A stretch of 64,000 nt of DNA, from NCBI RefSeq assembly GCF_002761295.1, contig NZ_CP017881.1, positions 979,069-1,043,068 of the forward strand, given 5' to 3'. Position 1 is the first letter of the stretch. The number at the start of each line of letters is the position of its first letter. Under the pieces are notes generated by a model that made no database searches, was not told the DNA's origin, and was given only the letters and a program-made list of their open reading frames with translations. The translations under genes and the position numbers were made by a program. The stretch comes from Methanohalophilus portucalensis. Its GTDB lineage: Archaea; Halobacteriota; Methanosarcinia; Methanosarcinales; Methanosarcinaceae. Below, piece after piece: positions 12,109-64,000 of the stretch.

Positions 12109-12137
12109 TCTCTTCTTCTTCTTCTTCTTTTTTATTT
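12109..12137 (+). terminator. pyrimidine-rich terminator tract
   Basis: A run of CTT triplets passing into T6 follows the stop at 12093. Archaeal transcription commonly ends at such T-rich tracts without a hairpin. Confidence 0.45.
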
Positions 12138-58265: not shown

Positions 58266-59714
58266 ATGAAAGAATACAAACTTTTTGCCCAAAGGGTGGG
58301 ATTGGTAGGGTTGACAAAATTCGTAAACCGATTCCAGGGAGTTATACTGCTGCCAATCCTTACAAAGAATATGTCTGTTGGAGATTACGGTATATGGGCA
58401 CAGATCATGGTTACCATCGGACTTATCCCCAGTTTGATGAGTCTGGGGCTTTCACAATCAATGGTTCGCTTTATGCCTTCTGTAAAGAATAAGGTAAACT
58501 TTCAGGATATGTTCTATTCATTTCTTTCCGTCATAACCCTGACAGGTATATTTGCCTCTCTTGGAATATATTTAATGTCAGAACAAATTGCAGATTTACT
58601 TTTTGATGGTGATAGATTAATAGTTGAAGTTCTGGCATTGGTGGTTTTTTTTGAAGGGATTTTGAAATTACTTTTAAATTATTTCAGGGCTACACAACAG
58701 ATAAAGAGGCATTCTATGCTAACTGTAGCAAAGAATGTACTCACGGTTGTTATTGTGGCATTTTTCGTTTTGCAGGGAGAAGGAATCTTTGGAGCTGTAA
58801 AAGGGTTACTTATTACAATAGTGATAATGTTATTGATTGCCCTACTCTTCATAATCAGGGATCTGGGACTGAAAGTTCCAAAATTTAATGATCTTAGGCA
58901 ACATCTGGCTTTTGGCATACCTACAGAATCCAGCACCATGTCAAAATGGATTTTAAACTCCAGTGATCGCTATGTCATAAGTGGCTTTCTGGGAACATCT
59001 GCTGTGGGTTATTACTCCCCTGGCTATACTTTAGGGACCGTTTTACAAATGTTTGTGGCACCTCTCAATTTCATGCTGCCAATGATCCTGTCAAAACATT
59101 ACGATGGGAATAATCTGGAGGAGGTCAAAAGGTATCTGAGTTATTCACTGAAATATTTCCTGGCCATTGCCATTCCTGCAGCATTTGGATTATCCCTGCT
59201 TTCAAGACAATTGCTGGAGATCCTCTCAACACCGGAAATAGCAGAGCAGGGTTATTTCATCACGCCTTTTGTGGCAATTGGGGCGATTTTTTTCGGTATA
59301 TTTTCTGTCTTTGAAAAGGTTGCGATGCTTGTGAAGAAGACAAAGGTTATTGGTACGATCTGGGTAATTGCAGCAGCCCTGAACTTGGGGCTGAATATGC
59401 TACTAATTCCTCATATCGGAATCATAGCTGCGGCAGCAACTACACTCCTGTCTTTCACGGCTGCCCTTGGACTTATGGCTCGCTATTCGTTGAGATATTT
59501 GCAATTTGACATGGATTTTGCATTTATATTAAAAAGTGTGTTTGCCTCTGTTTTGATGTCAGGGATAATTTTGTTATGGAATCCTTCAGGATTGTTTGCT
59601 GTTTTAGGGGTTATTGGGGCATGTGTAGTGTTCTATTTTGTGATACTGATTTTGTTGAAAGGATTTAATAAAGAAGAATTTAAATTCTTTAAGGAATGTA
59701 TAAGTAGCAGTTAA
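58266..59714 (+). CDS. polysaccharide (Wzx-like) flippase
   Basis: A 482-residue membrane protein with 13-14 helices of the MATE/Wzx polysaccharide exporter type. Motifs in style include NRFQGVILLPILTKNMSVGD and SSDRYVISGFLGTSAVGYYS. It would flip lipid-linked glycans across the membrane. Genes before and after it make sulfated and methylated sugars. Confidence 0.9.
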   Translation: MKEYKLFAQRVGLVGLTKFVNRFQGVILLPILTKNMSVGDYGIWAQIMVTIGLIPSLMSLGLSQSMVRFMPSVKNKVNFQDMFYSFLSVITLTGIFASLGIYLMSEQIADLLFDGDRLIVEVLALVVFFEGILKLLLNYFRATQQIKRHSMLTVAKNVLTVVIVAFFVLQGEGIFGAVKGLLITIVIMLLIALLFIIRDLGLKVPKFNDLRQHLAFGIPTESSTMSKWILNSSDRYVISGFLGTSAVGYYSPGYTLGTVLQMFVAPLNFMLPMILSKHYDGNNLEEVKRYLSYSLKYFLAIAIPAAFGLSLLSRQLLEILSTPEIAEQGYFITPFVAIGAIFFGIFSVFEKVAMLVKKTKVIGTIWVIAAALNLGLNMLLIPHIGIIAAAATTLLSFTAALGLMARYSLRYLQFDMDFAFILKSVFASVLMSGIILLWNPSGLFAVLGVIGACVVFYFVILILLKGFNKEEFKFFKECISSS

Positions 59715-59887: not shown

Positions 59888-60625
59888 TTGGGAACAAAAA
59901 CAAAATTTGAAATTCAAGATAATCAATATACATTTCCTTACCATCACATACCCCATCTGGATAAAAGAGGCTACCCTTTAAGGCATCGTTTTTTGAATTT
60001 TGAGTATATCTGCAATATATATCACATCAAGGAAATTGTAGAGAATTTAAATCCTGATTCTGTGCTAGATGTTGGATGTGGAGATGGAAGATTTCTATGT
60101 GAATTGTCTGATAGAATCAAAAGAACTGGTTGTGATATCTCATACCGAGGTATTCAGTTAGCAAAGGGCGTTGAACCAAAAATAGAATTTTATAATAAAG
60201 ATGTAAAAGACATTAATAGGACTTATGATGTAGTTACCTGTATAGAGACATTGGAACATATACCAGATGATGAAGTTAATGGGTTTATAAGTAAATTGGC
60301 TACAAAAACAAAAAAATCGGGGCACATAGTAATATCCGTACCATCTAAAGTGAAAACATTACAAAGTAAACATTATCGTCATTATGATATAGATACATTT
60401 ATTAATGAACTTGAAAATTCAAAGGCCCCACTAAAGATAAAGAACTGGGAATATATTCTTAAAACCAGTAGACTGCAAAAATTATACAAGTTGACAAATA
60501 ACCGACTTTTTTTTATCGAATTCCACCCATTTAGAAGATTTATCTGGAAGCATATTTGGAACAAAAATAGACGTGCAGAAGAGCATAATGGATTACACCT
60601 TATAGTGCTAATGGAGAAAATTTGA
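59888..60625 (+). CDS. class I SAM-dependent methyltransferase
   Basis: A 245-residue methyltransferase with motif I VLDVGCGDGRFLCEL and later TCIETLEHIPDDEV. The start is TTG at 59888, nine bases after AGGAGG. It is more AT-rich than genes before 59.8 kb. It probably methylates a sugar of the surface glycan. Confidence 0.88.
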   Translation: MGTKTKFEIQDNQYTFPYHHIPHLDKRGYPLRHRFLNFEYICNIYHIKEIVENLNPDSVLDVGCGDGRFLCELSDRIKRTGCDISYRGIQLAKGVEPKIEFYNKDVKDINRTYDVVTCIETLEHIPDDEVNGFISKLATKTKKSGHIVISVPSKVKTLQSKHYRHYDIDTFINELENSKAPLKIKNWEYILKTSRLQKLYKLTNNRLFFIEFHPFRRFIWKHIWNKNRRAEEHNGLHLIVLMEKI

Positions 60626-60663
60626 TTTTGACATTTATAACAAAATGTAATAGAGGTAAAGAG

Positions 60664-61470
60664 ATGAACGATCCAGATTTTATTATATGTGGGGCCCAAA
60701 AAGCAGGGACGACTTCTCTTTTGAGATATTTAAGATCACACCCAGAAATTTTTATGCCAAATAAAGAAGTACATTTTTTTGATAGAAATTATCTCAAAGG
60801 CCTTGAATGGTATAAATCACAATTTGCTGATAATTCTGTAAGCATCAAAGTATATGGTGAGAAGTGTCCTGAATATATGTATTTGGAAAATGTTCCTGAA
60901 CGTATATACCAAAACTTTCCAAACATTAAACTAATTTTTATACTTAGAAACCCCCTTGAGAGGGCATATTCAGGTTATTGGCATGAGGTGAAAAATGGTA
61001 GAGAAAATCTTCCATTTGAAAAGGCGATTAAAAAAGAAGAAGAACGGTTAAAATCTGAAGAGGCCTATTGTAAGATACATTGTTCCTATATAGATAGGGG
61101 AAAATATATTGAGCAGTTAAAACGATTTGAATATTATTTTTCAAAAGATTAGATGTTGGTATTAATCTATGACGAACTTAAAAAAGACCCTACGACGGTA
61201 CTATCAAAGATATATGATTTTCTAGGTGTTACCAATGTTCAAATCAATTTGGATAAAGTTCACAATACAGGAACTTCACCACGTAGCATAAAGCTACAAC
61301 AATTAAACACTAAAATCCCTGTTAATTTCATCAATAAATGTATCAGCAAGATAAATCTCAAGAGTGGATACTCTCCGATGGCATCAAAAACAAAGAAAGA
61401 GTTAAAGAATTATTTCGAACCTTATAATCAGGAATTACAACTGTATCTAAATAAAAGATTGGGGTGGTAA
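60664..61470 (+). CDS. PAPS-dependent sulfotransferase with an in-frame TAG
   Basis: From the ATG at 60664, preceded by GAGGTAAAG, the frame reads 162 codons, a TAG (61150-61152), then 105 more codons in the same frame. The 5'-PSB loop is GAQKAGTTSLLRYLRSHPEI, the 3'-binding segment RNPLERAYSGYWHEV. Before the TAG is YYFSKD, after it MLVLIYDELKKDP, where related sulfotransferases have an unbroken strand. Combined length 268 fits the family. It would use PAPS from the CysNDC operon. Whether the TAG is read through is unknown. Confidence 0.8.
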
Positions 61471-61586: not shown

Positions 61587-62440
61587 GTAAATAACAAGTT
61601 AAAGGTAATCTACATTATGGGGCTGGTCATAGCGGTTCTACTTTATTGGATACTGTACTAGGGAACCATCCAGATATCCAAAGTTGTGGTGAGTTAAAAA
61701 ATACATTCTTTGATAATTTACAAAATAATAGGACTTGCTCGTGTGGAGTAGAAGGTCGAAATTGCTCCTTTTGGTATCAGGTCATAAATGATTTTACGAA
61801 TAAAAAGCAACTTGATATGACCAATTATAGATATTTACAAAATATATTTGAGAATAATAATAAAAAAAATCAGAGAGCAATAAATTATAAAGCTTATATG
61901 AATTACACTTTGGGTTTTTTTAAAAGTATTAGTAATGTAAGTAACAAAACCATAATTGTTGATTCATCAAAAAATCCTCAACGTGCGTTAAACCTCTCAT
62001 TAAATCCCAATATTGAATTGGTTCTTATACATCTTGTTAGAGATAGTAGGGGTGTAGTTTGGTCTAATATGAAAAAGGAAAGAAAAAGTTTGGGAAGTAT
62101 CAAAGCCTATATACTAACAAATTTAAGGTCAGAAATCGTTTATAAAAAAACAATATCTAAAAAGATTAGGATAAGATATGAAGATTTCGTGTCTGATAGT
62201 ACAAAAATCTTTGAAAAAATTGGAGAGGCATCTGGTATCGAATTACAATCTTTATCAGAAAAAGCTATCAATGACGACTTAAAAGTAAATGGACATATTT
62301 TAGCTGGTAATCGCATGGCTTATAATTCTGATATCAAAATAAAACAGGATCAAAATTGGAAACATCGAATGCCATACAATGATAGATTTTTAACAACTAT
62401 ACTAACTTATCCTTTTTTGAAAAAATATGGATATATTTAA
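61587..62440 (+). pseudogene. second sulfotransferase, one-base frameshift at a G run
   Basis: The intact part runs from about 61620 to 62440 (TTG at 61646 or further up) and contains GAGHSGSTLLDTVLGNHPDI, a PAPS-binding loop, then VDSSKNPQRAL and the later LVRDSRGVVWSN, typical of the sulfotransferase fold. Upstream, a second frame encodes NNKLKVIYIM, which would join if the four-G run at 61619-61622 were five G. A homopolymer shift, real or from sequencing, therefore separates the start from the body. A phase-variable or dead gene. Confidence 0.65.
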
Positions 62441-62514: not shown

Positions 62515-63758
62515 ATGGACATACAGAGGAAAATAATATCATATCTATATTTTGGATATTTACCTATTGCAGATCAAACTATAGATATTGGAATCGATAA
62601 ATTAGATATTAATAAGAAAGATACGTATAAGCTATTTAATGAAAAAGAACTGGTGCAAAAAGGTGTTGAGTCATTAAAAAATGGATTCGCTGATTGTCTG
62701 AATAATATCGATGACTACCAAAACAGGAAACATATTGTACCTATAAGCGGTGGTTTAGACTCAAGAGCTATTTTAGCGGGATTGATTGATTTAGGGTTAA
62801 AAGACAATATAGTTACAGTCACGTATGGAACACCCGGCACATTAGATTACGAATTGGGAAACCTTGTAGCTAAACATGCAGGAACAAAGCATATCTCACT
62901 TGATTTAAGTAATATCAATATCACCCAGCAATCTTTAGGATGGACCTATAAATCAGGTGCTGAGTGGACCCAGTTGTTTACCTCTTACTATAACCACCGT
63001 ATAACCCATAAATTTGGATATGAAGCGGTATATTGGAGTGGTTTTATGGGTGATCCTTTAGCAGGATCGCATCTTCAAGCTCAGGAGAGTAGTACATGGG
63101 ATTTGGCTGTTTTTGAATTTGCAAAAAGGAATCAATTTTCTAAAAACTTTAATTTGCTTCCTCCTCAATTCAATCCCTGTGATGTGTTACCACAAGAGCC
63201 AATATATGATACAAATCTCTTAAATTTTGATGAGCAATTGGATTTTGCGATTCGCCAGCACAGCTTTATTAAACCAACAGTTATGGCTAAAGGTTACAAT
63301 TATATTGCACCATTCACTAACCAGAATTGGATTAATTTCATTTTAAATGTCCCATATGAGTATAGGTATAATGAATACATCTATAAAAAAATCTTACAGG
63401 AAGCATACCCGGATTTTTTTAAATTACCCGTTAAAAATAGAATGGGATTAACCTTGGATGATTCTGGATGGAAGTTGTATTATATATATATATATATAAT
63501 AAATTGAAGTTGTTGTTAACAGGTTCGTCTAAGCCGAACTTAAACTATATAGATTTCAATAATGCAATCAGAGATAGACAGGATATCAGGAATATTGTGT
63601 ACAATAATATCATAGACCTCAAAAATCGAAATGTAGTGGATTGGCTTGATATAGATGGAATTTGGGATGCTCACCAAAATAAAAAGAAAGATTTATCCAA
63701 TGCACTGTTACTATTATCTTCATTAGAAATAAATTTAAAGTTTGAGGAAAACGGATGA
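62515..63758 (+). pseudogene. asparagine-synthetase-like gene split at a (TA)9 tract
   Basis: The first frame (62515-63507) has the PP-loop ATP motif PISGGLDSRAILAG but no N-terminal glutaminase domain with Cys2. At 63481-63498 lies TATATATATATATATATA; frame one ends shortly after (TGA). A shift of two bases there joins the second frame (up to 63758), whose codons read NKLKLLLTGSSKPNLNYIDF and a C-terminal domain. With (TA)8 the whole frame, about 413 residues, is open. Such enzymes amidate sugars or amino-sugar acids in glycan loci. Confidence 0.75.
63481..63498. repeat. (TA)9 simple-sequence tract
   Basis: Nine TA units inside a coding region, at the exact joint of two frames. Loss of one unit puts the frames together. 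Confidence 0.9.
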
Positions 63759-64000
63759 AAATTGCATATCTGGCAAATTCTATAATACCTTCAAGAACTG
63801 CAAACAGCATACATGTAATGAAAATGTGTCAGGCTTTTGCAAAAAACGGACATGATGTTGTTTTATTGGTGCCCAATAGATATAGTGAAGAGGAAAGTGT
63901 AGATAATGTTTATTCATTTTACGGGGTAGACGATTGTTTTGAAATCAAAAAAATGCCCTTTAAAAAAATAAAATATGCAGGCATGGTTTATAAATCTCTA
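63755..64000 (+). CDS. glycosyltransferase family 4, N-terminal part (cut by the window end)
   Basis: An ATG overlapping the previous stop (ATGA) opens a frame to the window end. The 82 residues start KIAYLANSIIPSRTANSIHV then AFAKNGHDVVLLVPNRYSEE, typical of the GT-B N-terminal domain of family 4 glycosyltransferases. It belongs to the glycan operon. Confidence 0.75.
   Translation, partial: MKIAYLANSIIPSRTANSIHVMKMCQAFAKNGHDVVLLVPNRYSEEESVDNVYSFYGVDDCFEIKKMPFKKIKYAGMVYKSL

Follow-up and report, generated by a model that had tools for sequence, protein, structure and literature searches.

Repeat-based phase variation has been treated as a bacterial phenomenon. In surface-glycan genes of Haemophilus, Neisseria and Campylobacter, a repeat lies within the gene, the number of its units sets the reading frame, one length in three is ON, and switching has been demonstrated. 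The genomes of these bacteria carry many SSR tracts. For TA repeats, the closest described system is hifA/hifB of Haemophilus influenzae, where phase variation by the length of a (TA)9-11 tract was shown experimentally (PMC2651432). A 2025 review mentions archaea only as a subject for later study (PMC11868660). As to the type of enzyme considered below, uronamides are made by asparagine-synthase-type enzymes of glycan gene sets (PMC6025236; PMC7468200). Loss of wbpS alters the N-glycan of Helicobacter pullorum (PMC6025236), and a wbpS-type amidotransferase, PGN_1234, is found in P. gingivalis (PMC7468200).

We examined a TA repeat in the salt-loving methanogen Methanohalophilus portucalensis. 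The window, by which we mean the whole stretch of DNA that was analysed (64,000 nt), contains an asparagine-synthase-like gene that is divided at this repeat. Pattern search and frame reading defined the tract, and homology defined the two open reading frames:

63481..63498, + strand: (TA)9 tract, perfect, 18 bp
62515..63507, + strand: ORF1, 5′ part of the asparagine-synthase-like gene (ATP pyrophosphatase, PF00733), 330 aa as read
63468..63758, + strand: ORF2, 3′ part of the asparagine-synthase-like gene, in a different frame

The first-pass annotation had placed the break precisely at the repeat, and this is where we find it: the stop codon of ORF1, a TGA at 63505-63507, starts 7 nt downstream of (TA)9, and ORF2 runs in another frame. 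It had also claimed that deletion of one unit joins both frames. When computed, either loss of one unit or gain of two (8 or 11 units) indeed fuses ORF1 and ORF2 into a protein of 413 aa. A change in unit number at this tract would thus switch the reading frame, as expected of a contingency gene, and the ON length is one in three: 8 units, 11 units, and every third step. In its TA unit and in its length, the tract matches the 9-11 range of hifA/hifB. That tract, however, is located between divergent promoters and changes their spacing, whereas the one described here is intragenic and would act by frame, and its host is an archaeon. The bacterial surface-glycan genes share with this locus a repeat inside a glycan gene whose unit number determines the frame. 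Their switching is an established fact, while ours is a candidate, and their genomes have many tracts where this one has a single TA tract.

The repeat is longer than chance expects. TA runs were counted genome-wide by pattern search, and no second run of at least 6 units was found anywhere in the 2,084,875-bp one-contig genome. In 114 kb that we read directly, there were 601 two-unit runs, 58 three-unit runs, 6 four-unit runs and a single nine-unit run. Markov models of order 1 to 5 predict between 0.0001 and 0.003 (TA)9 runs per genome, and (TA)9 was absent from 100 of 100 shuffles of the window. Uniqueness in the genome, the Markov expectation and the shuffles together rule out a chance origin. 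A search of the flank against viral contigs gave no match, and Rfam and promoter/terminator scans around the region returned nothing useful. The window also holds a (TCT)6 tract (12111-12129); since this is a triplet repeat, a change in its unit number would not shift the frame.

We considered whether ORF1 and ORF2 might be unrelated genes, and this was ruled out because homologues span both. Proteins from other phyla align unbroken over residues 1-412 of the joined protein; single chains covering both halves were found in Phycisphaerae, Desulfobacterium, Planctomycetota, Anaerolineae, Chloroflexi and Halomonas MAGs, and further unbroken homologues are present in other archaea of the same phylum. 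ORF1 carries the PP-loop SGGLDSR and the motif YWSGFMGD, both kept in homologues. ORF2 carries the conserved segments NYIDF and LKxRxxxxW, which correspond to confident C-terminal helices in an AlphaFold2 model of the Desulfobacterium homologue, built from 7 sequences. Further lesions in the gene, which the first-pass annotation had named as evidence against a switch, did not turn up: over 1,240 nt there is no second stop or frameshift, and conserved blocks are kept on both sides of the tract. Apart from (TA)9, then, the gene is intact, as a contingency gene would be. Identity to six close relatives is 33-46% in the N-terminal part, 32-51% in the C-terminal part and about 9-29% in the linker that holds the tract. 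Across 12 homologues this linker measures 39-51 residues; the 8-unit form has 35, 4 fewer than the shortest of them. Being the least conserved segment and variable in length, the linker is where the protein tolerates change best. No (YI)n run occurs in the linkers of the 12 aligned homologues, all of which are distant; no close orthologue was found. In the homologue model, the linker, at a pLDDT of 43-58, lies between well-predicted parts, and the segment that follows it reaches 87-96 except for its last residues. Since this segment is confidently modelled, what the OFF form would lack is a well-defined C-terminal part. The GC content of the gene is 0.33, compared with 0.41 for the window, which suggests recent acquisition, and the gene is absent from all same-genus genomes examined.

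The first-pass annotation had assigned the gene to a glycan cluster, and its surroundings bear this out. The following neighbours are encoded in the window:

58266..59714, + strand: polysaccharide flippase (Wzx/MurJ type), first gene of the N-glycan cluster
59888..60625, + strand: SAM-dependent methyltransferase of the cluster
60622..61470, + strand: sulfotransferase 1 (PF00685), with one in-frame TAG at 61150-61152
61601..62440, + strand: sulfotransferase 2 (PF13469), frame-shifted near its start
63755..64000, + strand: start of a GT4 glycosyltransferase, which runs past the end of the window

The cluster extends past the end of the window, where it encodes an epimerase/dehydratase of the sugar-nucleotide type, another GT4, a NeuB-type synthase, a fusion of cytidylyltransferase and phosphatase and, after these, the archaeal oligosaccharyltransferase AglB. 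In the matching region of a sister genome (G004), the borders are the same and the contents different, and the asparagine-synthase-like gene is missing. Comparison with this genome located the lesion in sulfotransferase 2, which reads ATGGGGCTGG here and ATGGGGGCTGG in G004. Relative to G004, the gene is one G short near its start (ATGGGG-CTGG); the change falls in a short G run and not at a long repeat. Because the frame that encodes the P-loop has no upstream start codon, we take sulfotransferase 2 to be broken by an ordinary one-base change. A neighbouring gene frame-shifted without a long repeat is a sign of decay in the cluster. The G004 copy of sulfotransferase 2 (L084:12688-13620, minus strand) is also broken, with frame changes near T5 and A8 runs.

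The joined protein belongs to the asparagine-synthase family (PF00733) by a profile match, weak at 34.6 bits against a cut-off of 21, together with the PP-loop SGGxDS. The SGG-DSR residues of this loop are invariant among aligned homologues. In fold, the homologue model comes closest to asparagine and beta-lactam synthetases, though the TM-scores are weak (0.3-0.5), and a search of the joined protein against the sequences of solved structures gave no match. An N-terminal class II glutaminase domain was not found, there being only about 70 residues ahead of the PP-loop, and the score against TIGR01536 was 24.6 bits for a cut-off of 267. Judged by the glutaminase domain, the predicted protein would not be a glutamine-dependent asparagine synthetase or a WbpS-type amidotransferase. 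With WbpS, WbqG and PGN_1234 it shares the asparagine-synthase ATP-pyrophosphatase domain and a place in a surface-glycan gene set; it differs from them in lacking the glutaminase domain, in its total length of about 413 aa and in its weak PF00733 match. Analogy with these enzymes suggests an amide-forming or ligase role, and the substrate is likewise proposed by analogy.

From these data, a slippage switch would work as follows. Replication slippage would add or remove TA units. At a length of 8 or 11 units, the gene would yield a complete ATP pyrophosphatase of the asparagine-synthase type, and this enzyme, by analogy with WbpS, may amidate an acidic sugar in the N-glycan or modify it in some other way. 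In the sequenced state of 9 units, translation would end just past the tract, the conserved C-terminal helices would be lost, and the N-glycan would be produced without that modification. Some methanogens are polyploid, and a slipped copy might therefore have to spread by gene conversion before the phenotype changes. A useful rate of slippage, its reversibility, the substrate of the enzyme and any selective value are the parts of this scheme that we infer. Methanohalophilus has MutS1, which should lower the rate of dinucleotide slippage.

To see how such tracts are distributed, we scanned for (TA)8 or longer, at first in 60 relatives, and examined 80 distinct tracts in all. A tract was counted as lying in a recognisable gene if the open frame leading into it is at least about 90 aa long. 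By this measure 74 of the 80 are outside recognisable genes, mostly intergenic, and 6 are in one. This distribution rules out the idea that a TA tract generally marks a switch gene in the class. The best parallel comes from a same-genus genome, G001, in which a PF01757 (Acyl_transf_3) membrane acyltransferase is split solely at a 27-bp TA tract (L061:1500-1526 = L075:4955-4981). Its halves match profile positions 2-143 and 126-325, one on either side of the tract; the frame is restored by +1 or -2 units, and homologues elsewhere are unbroken at this position. Like the gene studied here, it encodes an enzyme of a surface-modification type and has a single clean frame break precisely at a TA tract. 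It differs in belonging to an unrelated family, in lying outside a glycan cluster and in the unit changes that restore it. A methyltransferase gene beside GT4 genes in G039, from another family of the same order, stops at a 21-bp TA tract (L047:1501-1521 = L169:8001-8021) and has, judged by eye, a plausible C-terminus in another frame past the tract; it is apparently split there. A DUF2254 membrane-protein gene in G508 changes frame at a 20-bp TA tract (L183:2503-2522), and is only a possible case because no family matches its second half and part of the sequence after the tract is N. Two tracts in G421 (C37 and C34) were rejected as further switches, since both genes have other lesions. In surface-type genes, then, a TA tract meets a clean frame break in more than one case, yet TA tracts also sit in dead genes. 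It is a tentative and rather doubtful idea that members of the Methanosarcinales employ intragenic TA slippage to switch genes for surface glycans and surface modification, as contingency loci, with three candidates: the amidotransferase-like gene of M. portucalensis, the acyltransferase of its sister species and the methyltransferase of the order-level relative. If true, this would be a rare archaeal case of repeat-based phase variation of glycan genes. Outside genes, a 39-bp TA tract in the same-genus genome G002 (L062:1501-1539) is located just upstream of a histidine-kinase-like gene, where it could change promoter spacing. G001 also has an intergenic compound repeat, in which a 31-bp TA tract comes after a CT run (L074:2501-2531).

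The best single explanation for (TA)9, in our view, is a slippage-prone ON/OFF site, and we hold it with even confidence. The sole lesion of the gene is at the sole long TA tract, the tract lies in a tolerant linker, and the genus provides a parallel. The chief rival, a serious one to which we assign a substantial though lesser probability, is recent inactivation: a TA run arose in the tolerant linker of a dispensable, newly acquired gene and slipped once, so that the tract is a neutral hot spot, and not a selected switch, in a gene that is decaying within a cluster that loses genes. This account fits the separate frameshift in the next gene, sulfotransferase 2, the low GC, and the absence of the gene from the G004 region and from all same-genus genomes examined. 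It also gains from the two in-gene tracts, of six, that lie in genes with more lesions, both in G421, and from the presence of MutS. It does not account as well for a gene that has kept its motifs on both sides of the tract with no second lesion in 1,240 nt, or for a like single break at a TA tract in the unrelated acyltransferase gene of the sister species. The linker adds a further point against a switch, since at 35 residues the 8-unit form would be shorter there than all 12 homologues. The phase switch proposed in the first-pass annotation therefore keeps the anatomy of an OFF-state slippage switch and gains a same-genus parallel, and is weakened by MutS1, by the frameshift in sulfotransferase 2, by the small share of surveyed TA tracts (6 of 80) that touch a recognisable gene and by TA tracts in dead genes; on balance it is supported in part.

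The break might also be an error of assembly or sequencing, with 8 (or 11) units and an intact gene in the true culture. PCR stutter occurs at dinucleotide runs, and the lesion of sulfotransferase 2 is likewise a matter of one base in a short G run. However, the contigs of M. portucalensis FDF-1 were assembled from 300-bp Illumina reads at about 5,300x average coverage (PMC5773736). Reads of this length easily span an 18-bp tract, and given this coverage we consider an error improbable. Use of both open reading frames, be it as a split enzyme, by translational frameshifting or by re-initiation, strikes us as slightly less probable again. ORF2 does have an in-frame ATG at 63468, 13 nt ahead of (TA)9, and the C-terminal segment is compact in the homologue model; but the first 40 nt of ORF2 lie within ORF1, a clear ribosome-binding site is lacking, all 12 aligned homologues are single chains, and the frames part just where the genome has its one long TA tract. 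Were a methanogen able to switch an N-glycan gene in this way, it would matter for virus attachment and for the diversity of S-layers. Should the length of the tract turn out to be constant, the locus would illustrate the breakage of a dispensable gene at a repeat.

The in-frame TAG of sulfotransferase 1 is a different matter. Among 80 open reading frames of at least 150 aa in 104 kb (the window, L042 and L043), that of sulfotransferase 1 is the only one to end in TAG. The genome encodes PylS, and solved homologues carry glutamine at this site. Because TAG ends are rare, PylS is encoded and homologues have glutamine there, the codon is probably read as pyrrolysine, which would make it a read-through position in a glycan enzyme, not a lesion.
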